From a virus: DNA of 25,040 nucleotides. Positions 6,224 through 24,839 of the stretch are shown here, piece by piece. Location: positions 1-25,040 of the IMG/VR virus record IMGVR_UViG_3300045974_000076; one strand, 5' to 3'. The position numbers and the translations under genes are program-made. Under the pieces are notes generated by a model. It did no database searches, was not told the origin of the DNA, and saw nothing but the letters and a program-made list of their open reading frames with translations. Position 1 is the stretch's first letter. Every line of letters begins with the position of its first letter.

Positions 6224-6518
6224 GGGTGCCTCTCATCACGGTCAGGTAGGTGTCAAGGTAGCGCAGTTCAGCCAGGGCACCGGAGATGTCGCCCTCCAAC
6301 TTGTTGAGTTCCATCTGCCACCTGCGGGTCGCCGCCTTCGCCTGAGCAGTTGCCGGGTTATATGCCAGCCCTTCACCCACCGCCGAGGTGTAGGCATCTT
6401 CCCAGTCTTGGAGGATGGCGTTCTGCATCTTGGCACGCTCGTTGTAATACGAGACAAGTTCCTGTGACAGGAACGAATACCGGGATAGGGCTGCTTCGAT
6501 GTTGTCGGGGATGCTCAC
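6216..6518 (-). CDS. Small helical protein, unknown function
   Basis: This is a 100 aa protein. The start is a GTG at 6518 overlapping the preceding stop as GTGA, and its own stop overlaps the next start by 8 bases. It is therefore embedded in a tightly coupled cluster. The sequence is predicted to be almost wholly helical, with heptad-like spacing near the end (RWQMELNKLEGDISGALAEL RYLDTYL) suggesting a short coiled coil. There are no cysteines and no membrane segment. Position before the nozzle-like gene suggests a tail assembly or fibre-attachment helper, but no family is recognised. Confidence 0.8.
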   Translation of the reverse strand: MSIPDNIEAALSRYSFLSQELVSYYNERAKMQNAILQDWEDAYTSAVGEGLAYNPATAQAKAATRRWQMELNKLEGDISGALAELRYLDTYLTVMRGTHG

Positions 6519-7072
6519 AGTTTGTTCCTATACAGTCCAGGGTCCACATATGTGGCCGCAATCTCGGGGTCGATTGGCCAGCCAGCGTCCCGGAGTAGGG
6601 TGAACTGGGCGACCGGGTTGAGGATCATCTGCCGGTAATCCAGCATGGTGATGGTGGCATGGTTGAGGCCACGAACGATGGCTTCACGGGGGGCGTATAG
6701 GTCGTAATGCCGCCAGTCTTCCGGCTGCCCGAACGCCTTGGTCCACGACATGATCCGTTCCTGTTCGTCACGAACAATCCATGCGATCATGTAGTACTGG
6801 TTGGGGCCTTTCTTGGCGTTGACCCACATGTCGTTCCGCATGGATATCTTCTTGAGATGTCCGTCCTTGTCGTGAGGGAGGGTGCCGTCTGGTGGGAGGA
6901 AATACCCGTTCGGATTCGGGTGATAGTGGCTGCCCTTGACATGGTGATGTTTCCGCATGAGTTTGTCTTCACTGGGGTCATGCAGGACAGGGAGGTCGGA
7001 TGCCTTGTGGATTGCCCGCATGAGCATGGAGGTTCCACTACGGTGGCGACCGGTGACGATCCAGTGTGTCAT
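6515..7072 (-). CDS. Sulfotransferase-like P-loop protein
   Basis: From an ATG at 7072, in ATGA overlap with the upstream stop, this is a 185 aa protein. The frame extends upstream to 7333 but would sit wholly inside the preceding gene. Residues 4-15 (WIVTGRHRSGTS) match the 5'-phosphosulfate-binding loop of PAPS-dependent sulfotransferases. IAWIVRDEQERIMSW (96-110) matches the strand and RxxxxxxxS 3'-phosphate segment, and the ending VDPGLYRNKL resembles the usual family terminus. It is short (families are commonly 200-300 aa) but contains both cofactor segments. In a tail gene cluster it might modify a virion protein or host surface glycan. The substrate is unknown, and a degenerate nucleotide-binding role is possible. 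Confidence 0.82.
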   Translation of the reverse strand: MTHWIVTGRHRSGTSMLMRAIHKASDLPVLHDPSEDKLMRKHHHVKGSHYHPNPNGYFLPPDGTLPHDKDGHLKKISMRNDMWVNAKKGPNQYYMIAWIVRDEQERIMSWTKAFGQPEDWRHYDLYAPREAIVRGLNHATITMLDYRQMILNPVAQFTLLRDAGWPIDPEIAATYVDPGLYRNKL

Positions 7073-8166
7073 GATGAAACCACCCATTGTGCGTTGGCGA
7101 CGCCTACTAGGGCTGATCCACTTGTTACCGTGAATGCTTTGGTGCCTGTTGCCCCGGCTGCTACCTGTGTGTAGTGTGCGGCTAGGAGTGGATAGCCAGA
7201 TGCACCCTGGTTGTTGACCAGCACGTCGGTGGTACCGAACACTTGTGATGATGCTGTGATGCCAAGGGCTGACCACGGGACTGCAAGTGCGAGACAGAGT
7301 TCGTTCGCTGCTGTGGTTGTCACCGATGGGCATGTGGCGGTCGTGCTGCCGGTATTAGTACCAGGTTGTGATACCAGGTGAATGTTTGCGGCTGCTCCAC
7401 GCACTGACCAACAGGCTGCGAATCCGACACCGTTCGATGACGAGATGGTGTATGCGGTGTCAGTGTTGAGAATACCTGCCGAACCACTTGCCACCTTTGT
7501 ATACACGTCGAAACTCCACGGTCCACCACCCACAAATGATTCGATGGGTAGACCGAATGAGGTTGTGGTGTTGTGTGCCAGGTTGGTCCAGCCTGCCGAT
7601 ATGGGTCCGTATGCGACACGGGACTTTGATGACATGTCGTACACGACAACCAGGAATAGTCGGTCTTGCCCGTTCGGTCTGCCGGACGGGAAACCGATAC
7701 CTGCCACAATGGATTGTGGGTCGATGGTGAGGGTACGGGCTGCCGGGGTGGCTGAAACGATGGGACTGTAGGCGAATGACACGTTGGTCAATGCTGCCGC
7801 TGCTGTGGTCGTCACACTGAGGACTGGGGATGGGGTGCCTACAAGTCCGGTGCCACCCACGGCAGATACACGGAACTGGTAGGCGGTACTGCCGACGAGG
7901 GCCGTGGCCCCATCGTAGGTGAGCACACGGCAAGTCAAGTTGAGGTAGGACGGGACGGTTTGGATGGTGAACCATGTGACGCCCGCATTGATGGAACCTT
8001 CAATGAGATAGGTGCCTGTCCCGCCCGTGCCCCAACTTGCGGGTACTGTCCATGTGAAGTCCACATAGTTTGAGTGCAGTGCAACCAGGACAGGTGCCGG
8101 GGTCACTTGTGAGGGTGGGGTGCTGGATGCGATGATGGGGGCGACTGTGGCCGCATTGCCGATCAT
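7069..8166 (-). CDS. FN3-domain tail/fibre protein with C-terminal beta domain
   Basis: This is a 365 aa protein. Its ATG at 8166 follows AGGACA and lies 8 bases after the fibre gene stop. Residues about 19-118 read as a fibronectin type III or Ig-like domain: PAPVLVALHSNYVDFTWTVP, then GTYLIEGSINAGVTWFTI, and YQFRVSAVGGTGL ending in a VTT strand. The remaining about 240 residues are Ser/Thr/Gly-rich beta with regular short strands (LFLVVVYDMSSKSRVAYGP, PWSFDVYTKVASG, NELCLALAVPW), resembling lectin- or concanavalin-like surface domains. Such proteins decorate tails or capsids and can bind cell-surface glycans. The domain type is reasonably clear and the binding target is not. It is followed in ATGA overlap by the sulfotransferase-like gene. 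Confidence 0.85.
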   Translation of the reverse strand: MIGNAATVAPIIASSTPPSQVTPAPVLVALHSNYVDFTWTVPASWGTGGTGTYLIEGSINAGVTWFTIQTVPSYLNLTCRVLTYDGATALVGSTAYQFRVSAVGGTGLVGTPSPVLSVTTTAAAALTNVSFAYSPIVSATPAARTLTIDPQSIVAGIGFPSGRPNGQDRLFLVVVYDMSSKSRVAYGPISAGWTNLAHNTTTSFGLPIESFVGGGPWSFDVYTKVASGSAGILNTDTAYTISSSNGVGFAACWSVRGAAANIHLVSQPGTNTGSTTATCPSVTTTAANELCLALAVPWSALGITASSQVFGTTDVLVNNQGASGYPLLAAHYTQVAAGATGTKAFTVTSGSALVGVANAQWVVSS

Positions 8167-10834: not shown

Positions 10835-11866
10835 TCAGGCGTTGTAGTTGAAGCACCCGCCCTGCTGGCTCGGGTTGGTGCAGACGAGGTTGCCTGCCCA
10901 AAGGATGGATGCGACCATGGCGTCCTGGTTCGGCGGTTCCTGGAACGGCTTGAGGTAGAAGTCCGCACGCTTCGCCACCACCCAGGTGAGGAAGTTCTCG
11001 TTGAGGAAGTACACCCGGCTGTTGTTGGCGTCCACGACACCCTGACCGACGTGGCTGTCCACGACCCAGGGGGTGTTGTTGAACAGGAGGTTGGTGAAAC
11101 CTGCCGATGCGAGCAGACTGTCATGGCCCATGGGCTGACGGTCGTACTGGACTGCGTAGCCAGCGGTGCCAGCGTTCAGGTTGTAGAACCGGTTGTACTG
11201 GTCCTGCCCACTGACGATGAGCGTGGCATGGTTGCCGCCACGGGTTGCCGCATGGAAGTTGCTGTTCAGGTTGCTGATCGACATGGTGCTGGATGACGTG
11301 ACACCCTGCACGGACGAGTTCCACCAGGTGTTGGCGGTACGGTCCAGACCACCGTAGGTCTGGTTGCCGATGGAGGACCCGGTACCGACCAGACCGGCAA
11401 GACCGTCGATTTCGATGGTGCCTGCGGGGCTGGCGTTGATACCGGCGCTGGTGCCGAGAGCATCACCGAACAGACCTCGGGCCAAGTACTCGGCCATTTC
11501 CATCTTGGCCTGTGCGGCCTGGAAGGTGAGGAAGTTGACGATGCTGTCGGGGCCGTCTGCCTTGAGCAGGGTGAGGCCATCCACCGACCACGAAACGTAG
11601 TACTGCTTCCAGTCCCACGCTGCGTTCTTGAGGGTGTCCGACGGGGTGGTGTTGAAGGTCTGGAACCCTCGGTATGCACCACCGCTGTTGAACCTGGCGT
11701 ACATCATGGGGGCTTCGATTGCCTCGCCGCCCTGTTGCTGCCGCTTGTTCATCTGCATGAGGCGGTACAGCACCACGTTGCTGCCGTAGATGTTGTCCGT
11801 GATTTCCGGCATGATCCATCGCCGGGCAATCGACGTGATTGTGTTCGTCCCGATGGGAGTCGTCAT
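10835..11866 (-). CDS. Major capsid protein (HK97 fold)
   Basis: This is a 343 aa protein. The ATG at 11866 follows AGAAAGG. It matches a widespread family of phage major capsid proteins: an N-arm with IMPEITDNIYGSNVVLYRL (19-37), an E-loop-like region with GGEAIEAPMMYARFNSGGAY (46-65), WKQYYVSWSVDGLTL (86-100), a spine helix with FQAAQAKMEMAEYLARGLFGD (115-135), and the signature YGGLDRTANTWWNS (171-184). There is no N-terminal delta domain, consistent with the separate scaffold gene immediately upstream. It would form the icosahedral shell around the portal. No chymotrypsin-like protease gene is seen near it. The family call is strong. Confidence 0.94.
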   Translation of the reverse strand: MTTPIGTNTITSIARRWIMPEITDNIYGSNVVLYRLMQMNKRQQQGGEAIEAPMMYARFNSGGAYRGFQTFNTTPSDTLKNAAWDWKQYYVSWSVDGLTLLKADGPDSIVNFLTFQAAQAKMEMAEYLARGLFGDALGTSAGINASPAGTIEIDGLAGLVGTGSSIGNQTYGGLDRTANTWWNSSVQGVTSSSTMSISNLNSNFHAATRGGNHATLIVSGQDQYNRFYNLNAGTAGYAVQYDRQPMGHDSLLASAGFTNLLFNNTPWVVDSHVGQGVVDANNSRVYFLNENFLTWVVAKRADFYLKPFQEPPNQDAMVASILWAGNLVCTNPSQQGGCFNYNA

Positions 11867-14555: not shown

Positions 14556-16505
14556 TTATGAGGTGCGACCAGCGGCAGCACGACGAGAGGGCGGTTGACC
14601 GAGGGTTCCTTGTGCGGCCTTGTTGTCCATGACACGGCCCGCAACCTCACCGGCATTCGGCCAGGCGTGGGCTTCCAGGACTTCAATCTCATCAATGGCC
14701 TGCATTGCGAACAAGGTGTCAGCCTCTGCGGCACGGGCACCACGAGAAGTCGGCCGTTCCGATCCGGCATCGGCACGGACCATGAAGCGGACGGGGACAG
14801 GCTGGGCTTCCTTGGTGATGTCGCCCGGCTTGTAGTCCATGTAAAAGTGCATGGACTTGAGAGCGAGGGCGGTGTCCTTGCCACCTTCACCGGACAGCAT
14901 CACGATGCGAGGCTCCGTGTAGAACTCGGCATTGTTCGCCGCCATCTTGTTGCAGACCGACTTGAGCATCCGTTCCAAGTTGCGGAGGATGGCACGCACA
15001 CGGACAAACGCACCGTCCTGCACGGTGTCGATGGTGCCCTGTGCGTTACGCCCACCAGGCATCACACCACGCATGATGGCAGCCAGACCGGCAATCGACT
15101 CCATCTTGGTTTCCAGGTATTGCAGGAGTTGGAAGGTGTCCGGGTGGAGTTGTGGGGGTGCCAGCCAGGACGTGTCGTTGGGTGAACCGGTCATTCGACC
15201 ACCGGGTCGGTTCGACATGGTGGTCTGTCGCACCCCTGCACGGGCCGCTTGGAGTAGAATGGGGTTGCCCAACAGCATGATGTTGTGTTCGATCTGGGCA
15301 AGGAGTCGGTTGATTGACTGCTGGGGTGACGCAAGGAACTGGACCAGAGAAGCCCCGTACCATTCGCCGGTATCGAACATCACCATCTTGTCGTAGGGGT
15401 GGGTGTTGAATCCGTAGATTTCGTCGGCGTACTTGTCCATCAGGATCGTGTCCCCACAAACAACCGTGCACTTCCATCGGTCAGTGACTCGGGCAGTTCC
15501 GTTCTCCATGCCTTCGGTGTCAATCTCATGGGTGCGGGTCCAGCATTCGATGACCAGGACTACCGGGTCGTCGGTGACCAGTGCCTCGGTGCTGCGGGCT
15601 GACGGCGTGAACCGGGTGCTGCCATACCCACCGGAGCCGTCTGCGAGGGCAGAGTACCGGACTCGGGGACCGACGTTGTTCAGCAAGTCGTCGGTCCTGT
15701 GCGGGGCTTGATCCACGTCTTCATAGCGGCGGGTGGAGATGGTCTTCATTGCCCCCGGCCATGCCCGGTCCACGTCATCGACCGTCATGATCTTCGCTTC
15801 GATGATGTAGTTTGCCTGCTCCATGGTGCGGGCATACGGGTCGGGGTAGATGGTGAACGGGTCGACACGACGGAACGCCGAATCGCCAAGGCCGTCTGCC
15901 AGCCACGGCTCCCAGGTACACTTGGTGTACCCGATACCGTAGGTGCCCACGTCCCAAAGCACCCGTTCGATTTCCGCATCCAGGTTGTTGACCGAGAACG
16001 ACGACGAGAGAGTCGCATTCATGTGTTCGGCAATCTTGTCGGCGTGCTGCCATTGCGGGGAGAACGGGACCATCGACGGGGTTGTCTCAAAGGACGGGCG
16101 CTGGTCAGTCATCCATGCAGTCATGGAGGCCAACAGCGGCCAGATGTTGGAGACTTCCGGTGTGGGCATCCAAGGCTCGGCCTTCATGGTCCACGTCTTG
16201 TTGTTCAGAATCTTGTACGACGACCGCCACTGAGCCACCATGTTCCGCTTGGCATCACGGGCACGATAGAACAACGCATTGACTGTGGCGATCTTCTGCT
16301 GAGTCTTGAGGTAGGCAGTCTCAGCCTTGTTCTCTGCCATCAATGCCCCACGAACCTCAGCCGGGGTCATCTTCTTGGCCTTCGTGGACGGTCCACCAGA
16401 CAGCATCCCCGTGTCCATCATCCCCGGCGCATTGCCAGGAGACATGCCCGGTTGAGAACCCGGCATCGACATGCTGGCAGGCGGGGGAGTATCGAGCATC
16501 GTCAT
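14556..16505 (-). CDS. Portal protein
   Basis: From an ATG at 16505 this is a 649 aa protein. The frame is open to 16562, but that segment contains the hairpin region and G/C-rich non-coding sequence. A GTG two codons earlier is the alternative start, and no strong ribosome site is visible. Residues 1-55 are Pro/Gly/Met-rich. A helical and beta body follows, with WYGASLVQFLASPQQSINRL (about residues 380-400), the W/Y-G-x-S…Q…IN motif typical of portals at the wing, and TMSNRPGGRMTGSPNDTSWL followed by a long helix with YLETKMESIAGLAAIMRGVM. The size matches podovirus-type portals. It forms the dodecameric ring through which DNA is packaged and ejected. Confidence 0.92.
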   Translation of the reverse strand: MTMLDTPPPASMSMPGSQPGMSPGNAPGMMDTGMLSGGPSTKAKKMTPAEVRGALMAENKAETAYLKTQQKIATVNALFYRARDAKRNMVAQWRSSYKILNNKTWTMKAEPWMPTPEVSNIWPLLASMTAWMTDQRPSFETTPSMVPFSPQWQHADKIAEHMNATLSSSFSVNNLDAEIERVLWDVGTYGIGYTKCTWEPWLADGLGDSAFRRVDPFTIYPDPYARTMEQANYIIEAKIMTVDDVDRAWPGAMKTISTRRYEDVDQAPHRTDDLLNNVGPRVRYSALADGSGGYGSTRFTPSARSTEALVTDDPVVLVIECWTRTHEIDTEGMENGTARVTDRWKCTVVCGDTILMDKYADEIYGFNTHPYDKMVMFDTGEWYGASLVQFLASPQQSINRLLAQIEHNIMLLGNPILLQAARAGVRQTTMSNRPGGRMTGSPNDTSWLAPPQLHPDTFQLLQYLETKMESIAGLAAIMRGVMPGGRNAQGTIDTVQDGAFVRVRAILRNLERMLKSVCNKMAANNAEFYTEPRIVMLSGEGGKDTALALKSMHFYMDYKPGDITKEAQPVPVRFMVRADAGSERPTSRGARAAEADTLFAMQAIDEIEVLEAHAWPNAGEVAGRVMDNKAAQGTLGQPPSRRAAAGRTS

Positions 16506-16564
16506 AGCCACGGACCCTACCACGCAGGGGCGTCCCGCCCCCGCACCCCTTGGACCCCACAATG

Positions 16565-16649: not shown

Positions 16650-17009
16650 TCACACCGTGGGCAACCCCTGTTTGTGACGCTGCCGGTTCGTTGCATCCAT
16701 CCCCTCATCGGTCACACCCAACTTCGCCTTGTCTGTCGGATCGACCCGCTCAAACTTGTGAGCCATACCCGTCCGCAAACTGACGATATCAGACTCCCGT
16801 TTCAGAGCCTCATCGAACTGTTGGTTGGAACTGATCGGCCTGTTGAGGGTCTTGTTCCAATGCTCCTGCATCTGGGCTTCGGTACGGATGATGAACAGAC
16901 GGCGCAATTCCCCGGTGCAATCAGGACCAATGCAGGCACCCAATGTGTCACCCCGATACTTGGAATCATGCGTCAACCCACAGGTACGGCACTTGTATGC
17001 GTAGATCAT
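16650..17009 (-). CDS. Zinc-ribbon protein (FmdB-like N-terminus)
   Basis: This is a 119 aa protein. The ATG at 17009 overlaps the large-terminase stop as ATGA. The N-terminus has a probable zinc ribbon with Cys at 7, 10, 26 and 31 (IYAYKCRTCGLTHD, then GACIGPDCTGELRRLF), the layout of FmdB-type regulators and of small phage proteins encoded near terminase. The remaining about 80 residues are polar and helical (RTEAQMQEHWNKTLNRPIS) with a basic end. It may bind nucleic acid or assist packaging. Tight coupling to terminase supports a role linked to packaging or head assembly, but the function is not established. Confidence 0.85.
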   Translation of the reverse strand: MIYAYKCRTCGLTHDSKYRGDTLGACIGPDCTGELRRLFIIRTEAQMQEHWNKTLNRPISSNQQFDEALKRESDIVSLRTGMAHKFERVDPTDKAKLGVTDEGMDATNRQRHKQGLPTV

Positions 17010-18835
17010 TCTTCCTCCATTTCACGACGCCATGCGGGAATCCCCATGTCATCTTCCGGTTTGTCATCGGTAGTCTGAATTGTGGCAGCCACCTTCTCAT
17101 TCACTTCCTTCACCAATTGCAGATGCGACTCATCCCGTGTGTATGCCGGTAATGGGGGTTCGATGAAATGGGTGGCCACAGCGATCCCCAATGCCATCAC
17201 ACAGTCATCGAAGAAACTGCCGTCACCATTCATGAACCCACCACTGTCGTCAGTCACATAGTCTTTGAGTTCCGTGAACGTCTGCTCATCATGGATCAAC
17301 AGACCATAGGTGGACTGTCCGATCTTCGTCAGGGGCGCAGCAAAGTTGTTGACCAACTGGCCGATAGCAAGATGTTTGGTGGACCTGTTTGTCCGCCAAC
17401 CAAACACGTCCTCACTGACCTTACCTGGCGTGTTTGTCACCTTCTGCGAGTTCCAGACGAAAGGATAGTTCGCACCCAACAGGTGACCCACCGTCGCATA
17501 TCCCGGACCTTCTGCCTCCGGTGCGATGAGGGCGTCATTGTACCACTCACCCAGAAGAAACAGTTGCTTCCCGAACTCAATCGGATCAACATGGGCGGAG
17601 AATACTGCCGCCTGTTCCAGAGTCCTACGGTTGATGACTTGCCCGCACGCCTTGTCGCCAGCAGTAGTGTGAGTAGGGTCCGCACCCAACTGGTAGATAC
17701 CCCACGACTGGTCAGCGGACGGTGACCGGTACACCTTGAGGGCACCGTGCGGGTTCTCAAAGAACTGTACCTTCCGTCCGACCCGCTTGAGGTCACCAAC
17801 CTTCGGTTTGATTGGCTGATAGTGGGCGAGAAGATCGTTGAGGCGGAACACGTTACGTCCTGTGGAAAGGAACGCCTCATGCGGGGTTGTGGGATACTCC
17901 TGCTTGAACTTGTCCAATGATCCTTGGCAGAGGTTGACGATGGCCCAACGACGCCATAGAAGCCGTGCCTCACTGATACCCATTCCGATGAGTTTGCGTT
18001 CGTCAGCATCCGGGTCTTTCAAGTTGGTGTACTTGCCACGTTCCTGTCGAGGAATGTTCTTGGCAATGTACTCGGGATGGATATGCCACGGGAAGAACAT
18101 GGGGGTGAACTCTGACCGGGAGGCTTCCGCATCCAACCAGGTGGAGTGGAAGAAGTTGCCGATACCGTTCGCCGTCGACTCGTAGAAGATGGCGGTCAGA
18201 CCGATGGACGGGATCGCTTGACGTAGACCCGTGATGAGTTCCGACGGGTTGTCCCAGAACGCCACCTCCGAAGCGTGCATGGCGTGAAGCGTCTTAGAAC
18301 GACCGGCTCCAACGTTCTTGGCAGTGGCCACCACAATGTTCGAGCCGAGGTCTGACCATGCCAGTTGCTTACGACCGTTGTACTGTTCCTCATGAAACCT
18401 CCTGAACGGGTATGTGGTCCAATACCGCTTGGTCATACCCAAGATGTGTTCTGCCGATTCGGCTTCATGGGAGATGATGAGGGATTGGAAGTCCTGGTAC
18501 AAGATGCTGAGGGCGAAGATGATGGCCTCAATGACCGTCGATTGCCCCATCTGACGGGCCTTGAGGACAATGATACGGATTTGCCCGTACTCAAACAGTT
18601 GCCTTTCTGCCTCATCAATCAGCCGTTCTTGAGCGAAGTTGATGACATCGCCAAACCTGCGGGTACCACGATCCTTGGTGAGTACCTTGAGTTCGTAGAT
18701 GATAGGCCGGAGTTGGATACGGGTACCCTTGAAGAACCCAATAGGGTCAACCTCCGCCCCGATATCCGGGTGCAAGTCCCCGGCCAGGGAGATGGGTTGA
18801 TCCTCGTCCAGAACGGAGTAGACAATTGCTGCCAT
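17006..18835 (-). CDS. terL: Terminase large subunit
   Basis: This is a 609 aa protein, ATG at 18835. The ATPase half shows a Walker A-like KARQMGQST (92-100), a Walker B region ending in the catalytic acidic residue (MHASEVAFW, 186-194) and the coupling motif YESTANG (218-224). A conserved HEAFLSTG (319-326) precedes the nuclease half, where the RNase H-like acidic residues can be assigned to GADP (D386), APEAEG (E440/E442) and FFDDC (D543/D544). It drives ATP-dependent DNA packaging through the portal and cuts the concatemer. The length is at the upper end for the family. It couples to the zinc-ribbon gene by ATGA overlap. Confidence 0.95.
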   Translation of the reverse strand: MAAIVYSVLDEDQPISLAGDLHPDIGAEVDPIGFFKGTRIQLRPIIYELKVLTKDRGTRRFGDVINFAQERLIDEAERQLFEYGQIRIIVLKARQMGQSTVIEAIIFALSILYQDFQSLIISHEAESAEHILGMTKRYWTTYPFRRFHEEQYNGRKQLAWSDLGSNIVVATAKNVGAGRSKTLHAMHASEVAFWDNPSELITGLRQAIPSIGLTAIFYESTANGIGNFFHSTWLDAEASRSEFTPMFFPWHIHPEYIAKNIPRQERGKYTNLKDPDADERKLIGMGISEARLLWRRWAIVNLCQGSLDKFKQEYPTTPHEAFLSTGRNVFRLNDLLAHYQPIKPKVGDLKRVGRKVQFFENPHGALKVYRSPSADQSWGIYQLGADPTHTTAGDKACGQVINRRTLEQAAVFSAHVDPIEFGKQLFLLGEWYNDALIAPEAEGPGYATVGHLLGANYPFVWNSQKVTNTPGKVSEDVFGWRTNRSTKHLAIGQLVNNFAAPLTKIGQSTYGLLIHDEQTFTELKDYVTDDSGGFMNGDGSFFDDCVMALGIAVATHFIEPPLPAYTRDESHLQLVKEVNEKVAATIQTTDDKPEDDMGIPAWRREMEEE

Positions 18836-18837
18836 TA

Positions 18838-18849
18838 GTAGGTACCTAC
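18838..18849. promoter_or_regulatory. 12-base palindrome at the terminase ribosome site
   Basis: The perfect palindrome gtaggtacctac spans the gap between the small-terminase candidate's stop and the large-terminase start, and includes the AGG that would serve as ribosome site. The GGTACC core also occurs in the palindrome at 20490-20501. It could be an operator or simply a chance feature. No protein partner is known. Confidence 0.3.
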
Positions 18850-19166
18850 ACTGCCTTGAGCGACACCGGCATGGTTTCCACGCTGTGCTCGCCCCTAAGC
18901 GTGGCCCTCATCCGGTCATAGGCGGCACGTTCCTCGGCCTCTGCTTCGCTCTGGGCGACGGTGTTCATCGCTGCGAGCATCTGAGGAAGGATCGCCTTGG
19001 TCAGTGCGATCTTGTCTGCCGGTGCCCCGGTCCTCATTACCAGGCGTTGATACTTGATGATGTCCTGGATCAAACCTGACAGTTCATCCTTGATGACTTG
19101 ATTGTCTGCTACGACCCCTGCGGCCAGTTCGGCAATCTGCTGGTTGCGCTGGTTACTGTTCGCCAT
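18846..19166 (-). CDS. Small terminase subunit candidate
   Basis: The ATG at 19166 follows AGGAG and gives 106 aa. An in-frame ATG 54 bases earlier would lie further inside the upstream gene and lacks a ribosome site. The protein is wholly helical in appearance: MANSNQRNQQIAELAAGVVA, then DELSGLIQDIIKYQRLVMRT, a central ADKIALTKAILPQMLAAM helix and an acidic coiled segment (AQSEAEAEERAAYDRMRATL). Small helical proteins directly before terL are commonly the DNA-recognition subunit. No clear helix-turn-helix is seen, so the call rests mostly on synteny and size. It overlaps the upstream gene's end by 14 bases. Confidence 0.8.
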   Translation of the reverse strand: MANSNQRNQQIAELAAGVVADNQVIKDELSGLIQDIIKYQRLVMRTGAPADKIALTKAILPQMLAAMNTVAQSEAEAEERAAYDRMRATLRGEHSVETMPVSLKAV

Positions 19167-19587
19167 CAGTGGGGACTCCTGCTGCGGCCAAGTAGGCGGT
19201 GGTATCGACGTAGTAGACACGCACGAAGATCATCCCCTGTTGGCTTGCGGCATGGGCTTCGGCTACATCATGGACGTATTCCAGTGGGACGTTCAGGGTT
19301 GATGAACACCAACCTGACGCCCCTAGTTGGGTGTGGCTGATCTTGGCGGCAATGTCACACAGATGGGTGACATCTTGAGCGACATCATCGAAGGGAATCT
19401 TTGGCATCTTGGACACGGACAGAGCCTTGCCGGAACTCCCTGACGTAGTGAGATGGGCGGTATCCGAGTCTTTATTGCGGGCACGTTGGGCACGCTTACC
19501 TTCCTTCCCTGTGGACGAATCCCGTGTCTGACCGGATTCGCTAGTGGCCTGTTTGCCCCCGGTAGTGCGGCGTGCAGCGAGAGCCAT
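19153..19587 (-). CDS. Unknown protein with basic disordered N-terminus
   Basis: This is a 144 aa protein. The ATG at 19587 shares one base with the upstream stop (TGATG). Residues 1-60 are rich in Arg, Lys, Ser, Thr and Gly (ARRTTGGKQATSESGQTRDS), probably disordered and possibly nucleic-acid-binding. Residues 60-144 look folded: KIPFDDVAQDVTHLCDIAAK, then ASGWCSSTLNVPLEYVHDVA and GMIFVRVYYVDTTAYLAAAG. No family is recognised. Its place between the Tad2-like gene and the packaging genes gives no firm clue. It could be a DNA-binding packaging accessory or another host-interaction factor. Confidence 0.8.
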   Translation of the reverse strand: MALAARRTTGGKQATSESGQTRDSSTGKEGKRAQRARNKDSDTAHLTTSGSSGKALSVSKMPKIPFDDVAQDVTHLCDIAAKISHTQLGASGWCSSTLNVPLEYVHDVAEAHAASQQGMIFVRVYYVDTTAYLAAAGVPTDGEQ

Positions 19588-19805
19588 CAGACAATCACCC
19601 AGTCTTCTGCCAACATGTCGGCTTGGGATGCAAGCCAGCCAGGTTGTGTCACACCTTGGGCCGTGTGCATGGCCAGATAAGGCTCATCGTCACCGATTGC
19701 GGGCCTCATCCACACGTACATGCCCCGACCGTTCCATCCTTCACGCCGAACACGGGAACCGGTCTTCATTGCCCGCAATGCATCACCGAAGTCTAGGGGG
19801 TGCAT
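19587..19805 (-). CDS. tad2: Tad2-like (DUF2829) anti-Thoeris protein candidate
   Basis: From an ATG at 19805 this is a 72 aa protein. A GTG at 19808 in GTGA overlap is the alternative start. Nearly the whole sequence matches the DUF2829 pattern: LDFGDALRAMKTGSRVRREG (4-22), the hallmark REGWNGRGMYVW (21-32), and PGWLASQADMLAEDWVIV (55-72) closing the domain. Members of this family, including Tad2 of phage SPO1, are small multimeric sponges that bind cyclic ADP-ribose-type signals made by Thoeris TIR proteins. The middle loop (residues 33-54) is compact compared with longer members. The gene is coupled on both sides within the packaging operon. Family membership is confident; activity, ligand range (gcADPR or cyclic dinucleotides) and host system are inferred. 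Confidence 0.88.
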   Translation of the reverse strand: MHPLDFGDALRAMKTGSRVRREGWNGRGMYVWMRPAIGDDEPYLAMHTAQGVTQPGWLASQADMLAEDWVIV

Positions 19806-20287
19806 CACGGCACCATCGACTTCAAGCCAGGAATGCCGAACGGGTTGTCCGGGTCGAAGTCCGGGTCGGCCTCATGCTCGTAACCCATGTCCACGGACGG
19901 CCGATTCGTCGGGGGATCGGCCAGAATCATGTCCGTGTGGTCCCATCCGGCAGTCTCTTTGCCTTCATCCATGGTGGGCATGGCGAATGACATGGCATTC
20001 ACCCCGGTATCGACCAGCATTGGGGGCGGTGATAGCACCGTCTTGACCGTGGATTCAATCGTGGCATGGATTCTGGCAGTGGAATCAGCCAAACTGGCCA
20101 GCATTTGGTCCATTTGCTTGGGTGCCTGAGACTGCATCTTGACAGCCTGCGTGACCATCGCCTGAGCCTGGCCGAGCATCTGCTGATTGGCCTCATTTAC
20201 CCTCTTGAGCAGGGACAATACGACCAGAACGGCACCCACAAGGAGCAGAACAAGCACTACGAGTACGGTAGCAACTAGGTAAATCAT
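19805..20287 (-). CDS. Membrane-anchored coiled-coil protein
   Basis: From an ATG at 20287 this is a 160 aa protein. An in-frame ATG 18 bases upstream is possible, and neither has a clear ribosome site. Residues 1-27 (MIYLVATVLVVLVLLLVGAV…) form one strong membrane helix. The next about 75 residues are helical and Gln/Met/Ala-rich (RVNEANQQMLGQAQAMVTQA), suggesting a coiled coil. The C-terminal half is acidic and Pro-rich (EADPDFDPDNPFGIPGL). The N-terminal anchor with a long soluble helix recalls spanin-like or membrane-tether proteins, but no lipobox or partner gene is visible. It is the first gene of the minus-strand operon, beside the divergent control region. The function is unknown. Confidence 0.78.
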   Translation of the reverse strand: MIYLVATVLVVLVLLLVGAVLVVLSLLKRVNEANQQMLGQAQAMVTQAVKMQSQAPKQMDQMLASLADSTARIHATIESTVKTVLSPPPMLVDTGVNAMSFAMPTMDEGKETAGWDHTDMILADPPTNRPSVDMGYEHEADPDFDPDNPFGIPGLKSMVP

Positions 20288-20623
20288 GGGGTCACAGTAC
20301 CACATAGAGTCTGGGGGTGCTACTACCACCATGGGTCGGTTGCGGACTGCGCCCTCCCCCTGCCCCGGAACTTCGATGGGCAAATTGGGATCTTGTAGAC
20401 GCCATGGCGTCATGTCATGGGTCCACTGTCTGCCTACTGTCCACCAAGGCAGGAGGGTTACCCTTCCCTGGCAGGATGGCAGACAGTGAAGGGGTACCCC
20501 TAGAGTGTGGAAATAGTGCCCGTGACCAGGGTCTTTAGGAAATTCCTTGACAGTCGACCGGCAGTCATGAGACAGTACCGATGTCGCCGAAACAACTCGG
20601 CACATTCCAACAGGAGACAAGTC
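20288..20623. promoter_or_regulatory. Divergent control region with nested palindromes
   Basis: This 336-base stretch between oppositely oriented gene sets contains no convincing gene. It holds a 14-base palindrome (gacgccatggcgtc, 20398-20411), an 11-base inverted repeat with arms cactgtctgcc (20424-20434) and ggcagacagtg (20478-20488), and a 12-base palindrome (aggggtacccct, 20490-20501). The motif tacccctagag at 20495-20505 recurs at 21632-21642. A TTGACA box follows at 20547. The arrangement suggests regulator binding between divergent promoters. I could not find a convincing minus-strand promoter. Confidence 0.55.
20547..20576 (+). promoter_or_regulatory. Possible sigma70-type promoter for the plus-strand genes
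   Basis: A perfect TTGACA lies at 20547-20552. At an 18-base spacing there is GACAGT (20571-20576), which matches the -10 consensus at only three of six positions, so the call is tentative. It points toward the gene starting at 20624. The same ten bases ttgacagtcg recur at 21847-21856 before the next operon, suggesting a shared control element whether or not both are -35 boxes. Confidence 0.4.
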
Positions 20624-21313
20624 ATGTCAACGCTCGACACAATCACATTCGATCCCAAGGCAGCGGTAAACAGCGGTATCGTCTTCCCGCAAGGGGCACC
20701 CACTGCCAAGGCTGCCAAGGATGACAACGGCAAGTGGAACAACGCCTACCTTGCACCAACGGCAGTCACCAAGGCAGCCGATGGCAGCGTGTCCATCCCT
20801 GGTGTGGTCATCCTGGTCACGTCGACCGGGGCTGCCACCCCTGCCACAGTGACAGGATTCCTCAAGGTGTCCACCAATGGCAACTACCTGGTCACCATCG
20901 CCCGGCAGAAAGATGCCATCACCGCCACTGCCAAGGCAGCCAGGGCCGAAGCGAACACGGCAGCCAAGGCAGCCTGGAAGACCAACGGCCCCACTGCCCC
21001 GGCAGCCATCGTCGCCCCGGTCGTCACCATCGCCGGACAGGCAGCCACGGCCCCGGCAGTCACGGCCCCGGCAGTCACGGTCGCCCCGACCAAGGCAGAG
21101 CAGGCAGTCGAGCAGGCAGGCAGTCGGCACAACCTGACGGCAGCCGACATCGCCATGCTGAGGGAATCGGGTTTCGGCCTCGGTGCCATCATGGACATGC
21201 TCAGCGGCAAGCCTGACACGGCCCCGGCAGTCACGGCCCCGGCAGTCACCATCGCCAAGGGGTCGACCCCTGCCAAGACCGGCAAGGCAGGAACCCTCGC
21301 ACCGAAGGTGTGA
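20624..21313 (+). CDS. Ala/Pro-rich protein with repeats, unknown function
   Basis: This is a 229 aa protein; CAGGAGACAAG precedes the ATG at 20624. Residues 1-95 look like a small beta-rich domain (SGIVFPQGAPT, KWNNAYLAPTAVTKAADGSV, GFLKVSTNGNYLVTIARQKD). A helical Ala-rich stretch (ATAKAARAEANTAAKAAWK) follows, then Ala/Pro/Val linkers with TAPAVTAPAVT at 142-152 and again at 199-209. Between the linkers sits a compact helical motif, LTAADIAMLRESGFGLGAIM (171-190) plus DMLSG. The linker DNA carries four copies of a 15-base repeat that also builds the terminator just downstream. Not recognised as a known family. As the first rightward gene and a highly soluble protein, it may be an early or DNA-associated factor. 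Confidence 0.85.
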   Translation: MSTLDTITFDPKAAVNSGIVFPQGAPTAKAAKDDNGKWNNAYLAPTAVTKAADGSVSIPGVVILVTSTGAATPATVTGFLKVSTNGNYLVTIARQKDAITATAKAARAEANTAAKAAWKTNGPTAPAAIVAPVVTIAGQAATAPAVTAPAVTVAPTKAEQAVEQAGSRHNLTAADIAMLRESGFGLGAIMDMLSGKPDTAPAVTAPAVTIAKGSTPAKTGKAGTLAPKV

Positions 21314-21334
21314 CAGGCAAGGCAAGACCAGACA

Positions 21335-21360
21335 CGGCCCCGGCAGCGATGCCGGGGCCG
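21335..21360 (+). terminator. Terminator hairpin 1, 11-base perfect stem
   Basis: The arm cggccccggca (21335-21345) pairs perfectly with tgccggggccg (21350-21360) around a GCGA loop, a stable GNRA tetraloop, followed by ttctgt. It lies 21 bases after the stop of the Ala/Pro-rich gene. The strong GC stem and a following T-containing run support rightward intrinsic termination. Confidence 0.8.
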
Positions 21361-21384
21361 TTCTGTATCCCAAGACAGGCAGAA

Positions 21385-21416
21385 CGGCCCCGGCAGTCAA
21401 TCGACTGCCGGGGCCG
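21385..21416. terminator. Terminator-like hairpin 2, 14-base perfect stem
   Basis: The arm cggccccggcagtc (21385-21398) pairs perfectly with gactgccggggccg (21403-21416) over a four-base loop (aatc). It lies 24 bases after hairpin 1 and shares its stem sequence. No T-tract follows on the plus strand (ctggcatt), so it may back up hairpin 1, stabilise RNA, or act as a cruciform or protein site. Confidence 0.6.
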
Positions 21417-21846
21417 CTGGCATTCTACGGCAGGGTACCGACAGCCACCATGGCAGGATACGGCCCTAGGTGCCCCTGTGGCAGCCGATCCGGCAGTGAG
21501 TGGCACCATGGTGCCACGGTAGTCGTTAGAGGCGCTTAGAACGGCAGCCAGGGACCTTAGAGACATTTCACCTGGTCACGGTAGGTGCCACCAGGTACGA
21601 CCCCGGCAGGCAGGCAGGCAGTCCCTAGGGATACCCCTAGAGGATGACACGGCAGGCAGTCGACAGGCAGGCAGACAGGCAGCCACGGACCCTAGACAGG
21701 CAGCCACAGTAAGACCACCGGACCAGACTACTAGGGCACCCAAGACCATGGGGTACACAAGGCTACTCTGAGGGAACCGAGCAGGCTCGCCCAGTACACA
21801 ACCCAGCCGAACCTCATGGAATCACAACCCCTAGAACAATCGGCTA
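21417..21846. repeat. GGCAG- and CTAG-rich noncoding repeat block
   Basis: About 430 bases without a convincing gene. It is packed with direct GGCAG units, densest at 21606-21712 (for example gcaggcaggcaggcagt, gacaggcaggcagacaggc), and with the usually rare tetranucleotide CTAG, including the 10-base palindrome tccctaggga (21622-21631), tacccctagag (21632-21642) and acccctaga (21827-21835). Short open frames across it have shadow-like composition and no ribosome sites. Iteron-like direct repeats in a noncoding block between early operons would fit a replication origin or a regulator-binding array. No AT-rich unwinding segment is obvious. Confidence 0.6.
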
Positions 21847-23522: not shown

Positions 23523-23560
23523 AAGGCCCGGTGTCCCTCATGGGATACCGGGCCTTTCTT
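23523..23560 (+). terminator. Strong intrinsic terminator of small-gene operon
   Basis: The arm at 23523-23537 (aaggcccggtgtccc) pairs with 23542-23556 (gggataccgggcctt) as 15 base pairs including one G-T, with a four-base loop (tcat). It is followed by tcttgt. The A-run before and T-rich run after fit a bidirectional or rightward factor-independent terminator, and it lies 14 bases after the last stop of the operon. Confidence 0.9.
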
Positions 23561-23627
23561 GTATCCCTAGTTACCTGGTCCGGTAGTCATCAGGTATGTG
23601 GGCCTTGGTGTTCTTGGAACAAATCTG

Positions 23628-23655
23628 TTGACAGATTCGGCGGGATCGGTATACA
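23628..23655 (+). promoter_or_regulatory. Sigma70-type promoter of the DUF932-like gene
   Basis: TTGACA (23628-23633) and TATACA (23650-23655) are separated by 16 bases. It is the best match to a housekeeping promoter in the window. It sits between the preceding terminator and the start at 23709, giving a leader of roughly 45 bases. The gene therefore has its own transcription unit. Confidence 0.75.
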
Positions 23656-23708
23656 GTGCCGGCAGCGAATCGGGAACGGCCCGACGCAAACCGAAAGGCA
23701 ACATCATC

Positions 23709-24839
23709 ATGGGTTACGCAGGAGAAGTGGAATGGATGAACCAAGAGGGCAACGCACTCATGGGATTCCTGGACAACCGGGCCATGTGGGAGAAGAACGG
23801 CTACGTCCACATGCAGAAGGACGGCACCATGAAGGCATGGTGGGCCAGTGAAGATTTCAAGGGTGGCTATGCCGGTGCCATCCCCGTCGAAGACGTGCAG
23901 CGTCGGATGCTCAACTGGGAAGCCCAAGAGTCCGACATCGCCGTCAAGGTCTACGTCACCGAAGGCGACTACGACGACCAGGACAGCAACGGCTACTTCA
24001 AGTGGGTGGCAGACCCGGATCACAAGGCCATCGTGAGGACGGACAACAAGGCCATCTTCAACTATGTCGGTCGTGACACCTACCAGGTCCACGGCTACGA
24101 CCCGGTGATCCAGCAGTGTGCCAACATCGCTGACGGGGAACTGGGCATCGCCTCAGCGTTCCTCATGGACCAAGGTGCCGTGTTCGTCATCAACATGGAA
24201 CTCCCGGATGACATCACCACCGAGACAGGGATCGCCCACCGTGTCCGGTTGCAGGCATCGACCAGCATGAACTCCAAGTTCGCCACCCAGTGGAAGATCG
24301 TGGATGAGTTCAGCGTGTGCAGCAACTCGTTCAGTCTCAACCTGGCAGGCAAGGGCAACGAGTTCCGTGTCAAGCACACCAGCAAGTCCCTCGGTCGCAT
24401 CGGTGATGCCCGGCAGGCGTTGGGCCTGGTCTACAAGGCAGCGGAGGAATACACCGCATTCCTGGACAGCATGACCAAGGTGGACGTGAACGACGCCCAG
24501 TTCAAGGCCATCTTGGAAGGCATCTTCGTCCTCCCCGACCCGGAGGTGAAGAACGGCAAGGTGTGCAACCTTGCGGCCATCACAAGGACAGAGAACAAGC
24601 GGGACACCCTGCTCACCATGTGGGGCAAGGACAAGACGGTCAGCCCGTGGGCAGGCACCTTGTTCGGTGCATTCCAGGCATGGTCGACCTGGAATCAGCA
24701 TGAGCGTCCCCGTGGGGATGCCCTGGCAGCCAACATCATCGGCAGCGTGAATGGCAGCATCGCCAAGGCCGACTCGGACTTCTTCGCCATCGTGGCTGGC
24801 TTGGAAAACCTCGATCTGGGTGCCCTCGTCCCTGCCTGA
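23709..24839 (+). CDS. DUF932 / TIGR03299-like phage protein
   Basis: The ATG at 23709 follows GAAAGGCAACATCATC and gives 376 aa. An upstream in-frame extension lies across the promoter and is discounted. Features shared with the DUF932 family are KAIVRTDNKAIFNYVGRDTY (the 'may change or test' strand near residues 108-127), GAVFVINMELPDDI (158-171), the HRVRLQASTSMNSKFATQW region, VCSNSFSLNLAG and a VKHTSKSLGRIGDARQAL helix, then TLFGAFQAWSTWNQHERPRG near the end. The family is widespread in phages and plasmids; its function is not settled. The protein is soluble, with no membrane segments. Its own promoter and terminator suggest independent, perhaps strong, expression. Confidence 0.88.
   Translation: MGYAGEVEWMNQEGNALMGFLDNRAMWEKNGYVHMQKDGTMKAWWASEDFKGGYAGAIPVEDVQRRMLNWEAQESDIAVKVYVTEGDYDDQDSNGYFKWVADPDHKAIVRTDNKAIFNYVGRDTYQVHGYDPVIQQCANIADGELGIASAFLMDQGAVFVINMELPDDITTETGIAHRVRLQASTSMNSKFATQWKIVDEFSVCSNSFSLNLAGKGNEFRVKHTSKSLGRIGDARQALGLVYKAAEEYTAFLDSMTKVDVNDAQFKAILEGIFVLPDPEVKNGKVCNLAAITRTENKRDTLLTMWGKDKTVSPWAGTLFGAFQAWSTWNQHERPRGDALAANIIGSVNGSIAKADSDFFAIVAGLENLDLGALVPA

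Follow-up and report, generated by a model that had tools for sequence, protein, structure and literature searches.

A compact Tad2-family protein encoded at the head of a viral packaging operon

The 25,040-nucleotide stretch of viral DNA analysed here (the window) carries a very short reading frame upstream of its large terminase gene, and the locus raises the question of whether the product is a nucleotide sponge of the Tad2 type and, if so, why the gene would be found in a packaging operon. Read from the ATG at position 19805 of the minus strand, the frame encodes 72 aa, or 73 aa when read from a GTG at 19808, and it terminates in the stop codon at 19589-19587. The features on which our argument draws are the following, with two related viral contigs, L082 and L083, used for comparison.

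19587..19805, minus strand: tad2-like gene, a compact member of the Tad2/DUF2829 family by profile, AlphaFold2 and Foldseek
20294..20302, minus strand: putative extended -10 box TGGTACTGT of the leaderless type, with its end 6 nt upstream of the operon's first start codon
19805..20287, minus strand: membrane protein of 160 aa, the operon's first gene, conserved in L082 and L083
19153..19587, minus strand: 144 aa gene directly downstream of tad2, found in L082 and L083 directly after the membrane protein
18846..19220, minus strand: helical protein of 124 aa, placed where a small terminase subunit would be expected, with no family match
17006..18835, minus strand: terminase large subunit (TerL), by PHROG terminase matches and tblastn to annotated TerL
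14556..16562, minus strand: portal protein (P22_portal, 92.7 bits)
10835..11866, minus strand: major capsid protein, matching phrog_9953 (major head protein, E 8.1e-52) and lying farther down the same run of genes

The 72 aa product is a member of the Tad2 family, and this membership is secure. A preliminary description of the window had claimed an end-to-end match to DUF2829 and proposed a profile search as a check; the search is significant, with the Pfam profile PF11195 (Tad2-like, formerly DUF2829) scoring 85.2 bits (E 4.6e-24) against a curated cut-off of 25 bits. Residues 6-73 align with profile positions 2-73 of 73, which is the whole domain, and both of the hallmark motifs quoted in that description are present. 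When PDB sequences were searched with phmmer, the only matches were Tad2/AcrIIA7 chains, the best being SptTad2 (E 3.5e-18), followed by HgmTad2/AcrIIA7 (3.3e-17), ModTad2 (6.9e-13), and SPO1 gp34.65 (5.2e-10). Structure prediction, which had likewise been proposed, returns the Tad2 fold for the monomer. The AlphaFold2 model, built from an alignment of 43 members (pLDDT 92.9, pTM 0.79), consists of a helix (7-15), strands at 20-22, 31-35, 44-48, and 54-56, a second helix (62-66), and a last strand (70-72). Its best 24 Foldseek matches in the PDB are all Tad2 proteins (E 6e-8 to 5e-5), and the next match has an E value of 0.24. Among the Tad2 matches are SPO1 Tad2 with both gcADPR isomers (8smf/8smg), ModTad2 with His-ADPR (9eib), HgmTad2 with cADPR and cGG (8kbk), and SptTad2 with cGG. 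Tad2 is an already known protein family, of which the gene described here is a further member and among the most compact seen.

Residues R22, G24, W25, N26, G27, W58, S61, Q62, D64, D69, and W70 are each conserved in at least 97% of 153 distinct relatives, many of which were found with seed patterns such as DMLAEDW, so that conservation of the C-terminal motif is inflated in this set. All of these core residues except Q62 are common to SPO1, ModTad2, SptTad2, and HgmTad2; the SPO1 sequence was fetched independently by accession, and its agreement with the core is therefore free of seed bias. The span between the two invariant tryptophans, W25 and W58, is 33 in the window protein; in SPO1 it is 48, and the most frequent value among 172 measured proteins is 47. 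Only one of these, L191 from a Rhizobium genome, has a span shorter than that of the window protein. Single span values are approximate, since for at least one protein, Curiosium, the pattern put the motif in the wrong place. The insertion in the loop that leads from the second strand to the third is absent, leaving a loop 15 residues shorter than that of SPO1 and about 33 residues shorter than that of HgmTad2.

These differences bear directly on the ligand. The gcADPR pocket of Tad2 is formed by loop b1-b2, loop b3-b4, strand b4, loop b4-a3, and helix a3, as reviewed in PMC12043709, and the dinucleotide site is an insertion between b2 and b5 that is independent of this pocket (PMC12043709). 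Judged from the sequence and the predicted strands, the pocket-forming segments (loop b1-b2, loop b3-b4, strand b4, and helix a3) are present in the window protein with their invariant residues kept; by the same predicted strands, the long b2-b5 insertion of the HgmTad2 type is missing. Because the pocket segments are kept and the insertion is missing, we predict an ADP-ribose-type sponge that takes up TIR-made signals only and does not bind cyclic dinucleotides. In tetramers, the loop may also add to stability, and its loss could shift the choice of ligand in ways that are hard to foresee.

How the gene came to lie here can be read from L082 and L083, whose TerL proteins are 83% and 71% identical, respectively, to that of the window. 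In both contigs, the membrane protein is followed by the 144 aa protein, the 124 aa protein, TerL, a zinc-ribbon protein, and portal, with no tad2. The membrane protein gene ends in ...VP-TAATG-GGCCTCGC in L082 and in ...VP-TGATG-(tad2)-TGATG-GCTCTCGC in the window. The insert is exactly one reading frame with a TGATG stop/start overlap at each end, through which translational coupling of tad2 is plausible. Identities of TerL, portal, and capsid place L083 as the outgroup to the window and L082, and a gain in the window lineage is therefore simpler, requiring one event as opposed to two losses. The GC content of tad2 (0.58) is the same as that of its neighbors, and composition gives no sign of recent transfer.

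The suggestion that the operon start is an accessory slot finds support in this junction, which in both relatives is without tad2 and heads an otherwise identical gene order. We limit the slot claim to L082 and L083, the two relatives on which it is founded, because homology of the 144 aa and membrane proteins to their positional equivalents in more distant contigs (L251-L260) was not supported (hhalign E 0.39, probability 9.5%). Within that set, small cysteine-containing reading frames (43-53 aa) occur between the membrane protein and the next gene at L256:2175-2336, L253:355-498, and L254:1017-1148; L252, L259, and L260 are without such a coupled frame at the membrane-protein junction. It looks as if the junction in the distant relatives takes other small genes, the homology of its flanking genes to those of the window being unsupported.

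The genes on either side of tad2 had also been put forward as possible counter-defence genes, which the comparison does not favor, given that both are kept in L082 and L083 and that neither matched any family in Pfam, NCBIfam, or PADLOC. The 160 aa protein, which has an N-terminal membrane helix, a coiled middle, and a C-terminal D-[DE]-N-P-F-G-I-P-G motif, is 49-53% identical to its counterparts in these contigs; the corresponding figures for the 144 aa protein, which AlphaFold2 models poorly (pLDDT 50) from an alignment of three sequences, are 58-61%. Both look like standing parts of the operon as opposed to accessory genes. The 144 and 124 aa genes lie between tad2 and TerL, all on the same strand, and from its place we infer that the 124 aa protein is the small terminase subunit. 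Farther down the series, the nearest matches of the capsid protein among phage records, at roughly 30% identity or less, come from phages of Bradyrhizobium, Myxococcus, Ruegeria, and Stenotrophomonas. Among the tail genes, a minus-strand reading frame at 6515-7333 has a P-loop-like GRHRSGTSML and is sulfotransferase-like by eye; it matched nothing in Pfam, PHROG, or NCBIfam.

The packaging-operon setting, which the preliminary description had treated as unusual, recurs. In the 36 viral records that have both a Tad2-like gene and a recognizable TerL, the two are on the same strand in 32 and within 6 kb of each other in 23, and the Tad2-like gene is within 3 kb upstream of TerL in seven. The Mycobacterium phages MalagasyRose and Curiosium are alike in this respect, with a compact Tad2-like gene 4 in a stretch of small genes just upstream of TerS, TerL, and portal, and in L017 a Tad2-like gene precedes, by about 1.2 kb, a TerL that is a relative of the window's. 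Co-expression with head genes would make sense because, in staphylococcal and streptococcal Thoeris systems, the major capsid protein is the reported activator (PMC12578639).

The start of the operon has features of its own. Of 25 window start codons inspected, a TANNNT box lies six bases upstream of only one, that of the membrane-protein gene, where it takes the extended form TGGTACTGT; the box at this spacing is TGCTACAAT in L082, and L083 has an imperfect version, a TATATA run. In M. tuberculosis, TGNTANNNT boxes make up the strongest of the mapped promoter classes (PMC3898074), and many transcripts of that species are leaderless. This arrangement suggests a leaderless operon start at the membrane-protein gene and, from three sequences, gives a hint of a promoter of the host type and perhaps of an actinobacterial host. 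A sigma-70 scan of the window found fewer promoter-like sites than in shuffled sequences and none at the operon start. Both the L082 and L083 contigs begin (L082:1; L083:1) at exactly the base aligned with window position 20347, which leaves 61-62 bases ahead of the packaging operon's first gene, and the contigs of many distant relatives (e.g., L262, L265, L267, and L271-L274) begin at most about 140 bases before the corresponding gene. These contig starts suggest a physical genome end there, probably a fixed one. Beyond this point, positions 20990-21430 are of low complexity, with many GGCAGTC/CCCCGGCAGTCACGG repeats inside and after a reading frame at 20624-21313. On the plus strand, 23598-24839 encodes a DUF932/TIGR03299 phage/plasmid-like protein (132.6 bits, cut-off 110.7) that is preceded by a strong terminator-like hairpin at 23523-23556; no relatives of this protein were found in a scan against viral sequences.

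A more ambitious proposal can be made from these observations, which we offer tentatively and consider doubtful as a whole. The junction that heads the terminase operon, beside the physical genome end, would be a standing counter-defence slot, from which a leaderless host-type promoter would supply the sponge with or before the Thoeris-triggering capsid, and the short loop would restrict that sponge to TIR signals.

The explanation that we consider probable is narrower, namely that the gene encodes a compact Tad2 sponge, predicted to be tetrameric, which captures a TIR-made ADP-ribose signal, does not bind dinucleotides, and was acquired as a single reading frame. The protein would assemble as the Tad2 homotetramer and take up the ADP-ribose signal of a host TIR protein, whether gcADPR or His-ADPR, so that with the signal captured the Thoeris effector would stay off; lacking the long insertion, it would leave cyclic dinucleotides unbound. 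The gene would have been gained where the packaging operon begins, between two conserved genes, and would be translated through the stop/start overlap. If the operon is co-transcribed with the head genes, synthesis of the sponge would accompany that of the capsid, the reported Thoeris trigger. An unlikely alternative is that the compact protein is a sponge for some other small nucleotide, such as another TIR product or an unknown ADP-ribose derivative, and does not act against the known Thoeris types. The ligand does vary within the family (gcADPR for SPO1, His-ADPR for ModTad2, and cGG for SptTad2), and the region shortened in the window protein is the most variable loop, but the window protein retains the whole conserved core around the ADP-ribose pocket.

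We judge it more improbable that the short protein keeps the fold and has lost sponge activity or taken another role in the packaging operon. Its location inside that operon and its having 13 or more residues fewer than its nearest relatives on the core tree would fit such a change; however, the core residues are conserved, L082 and L083 have the same packaging operon without tad2, which is thus not needed for packaging there, and similarly short relatives occur in unrelated settings, one of them beside a nicotinamide phosphoribosyltransferase gene. Inhibition of type II CRISPR-Cas, the activity for which HgmTad2 was deposited as AcrIIA7, is the reading to which we give the least credence, since the AcrIIA7 structures that have been solved contain bound cADPR and cGG, as fits a nucleotide sponge.

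A compact Tad2 sponge in this position would be of use beyond the window. Closely related phages here provide a natural pair with and without tad2, and a naturally loop-less Tad2 offers a means of testing whether the loop alone decides cyclic dinucleotide binding. That counter-defence genes can sit in packaging operons also means that searches confined to early regions will miss them.

Relative to the characterized proteins SPO1 gp34.65, ModTad2, SptTad2, and HgmTad2/AcrIIA7, the window protein is alike in its full-length profile match, its predicted fold, and its invariant residues (R-x-GWNG, W-x-x-S-x-x-D, and D-W), and it differs in having 73 aa as opposed to 88-104 aa. The dinucleotide site of HgmTad2 sits in the insertion between strand 2 and strand 3, which the window protein does not have. 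Two further compact relatives are of note for their contexts. In Aeromonas phage Ahp1 (L168:5983-6219), the Tad2-like gene directly precedes the nicotinamide phosphoribosyltransferase gene, an arrangement that may pair a signal sponge with NAD salvage. In Pseudomonas phage Lu11 (L165:5689-6225), a protein of 178 aa has a compact Tad2-like domain as its C-terminal portion and an unrelated N-terminal portion. The best match over the core is L002 (IMG/VR 3300029893_000034), with 66% identity over 73 core columns, although its loop is about 20 residues longer and it has an N-terminal extension. On the core tree from those 73 columns, the window protein groups with the longer-loop L006 and Serratia phage Tlacuache (SH-like support 0.95), its nearest relatives being 86-97 aa, and falls outside the compact mycobacteriophage group. 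Because it clusters with longer-loop relatives, this placement suggests that the loop was shortened separately and more than once, 73 columns being a weak basis for a tree. The DUF2829 proteins of mycobacteriophages MalagasyRose and Curiosium (gp4), Acinetobacter phage XC38, and Aeromonas phage Ahp1 are likewise compact (71-78 aa) with a short loop, but they share a PD-x-x-S-[KR]-MT sequence in that loop that the window protein does not have.
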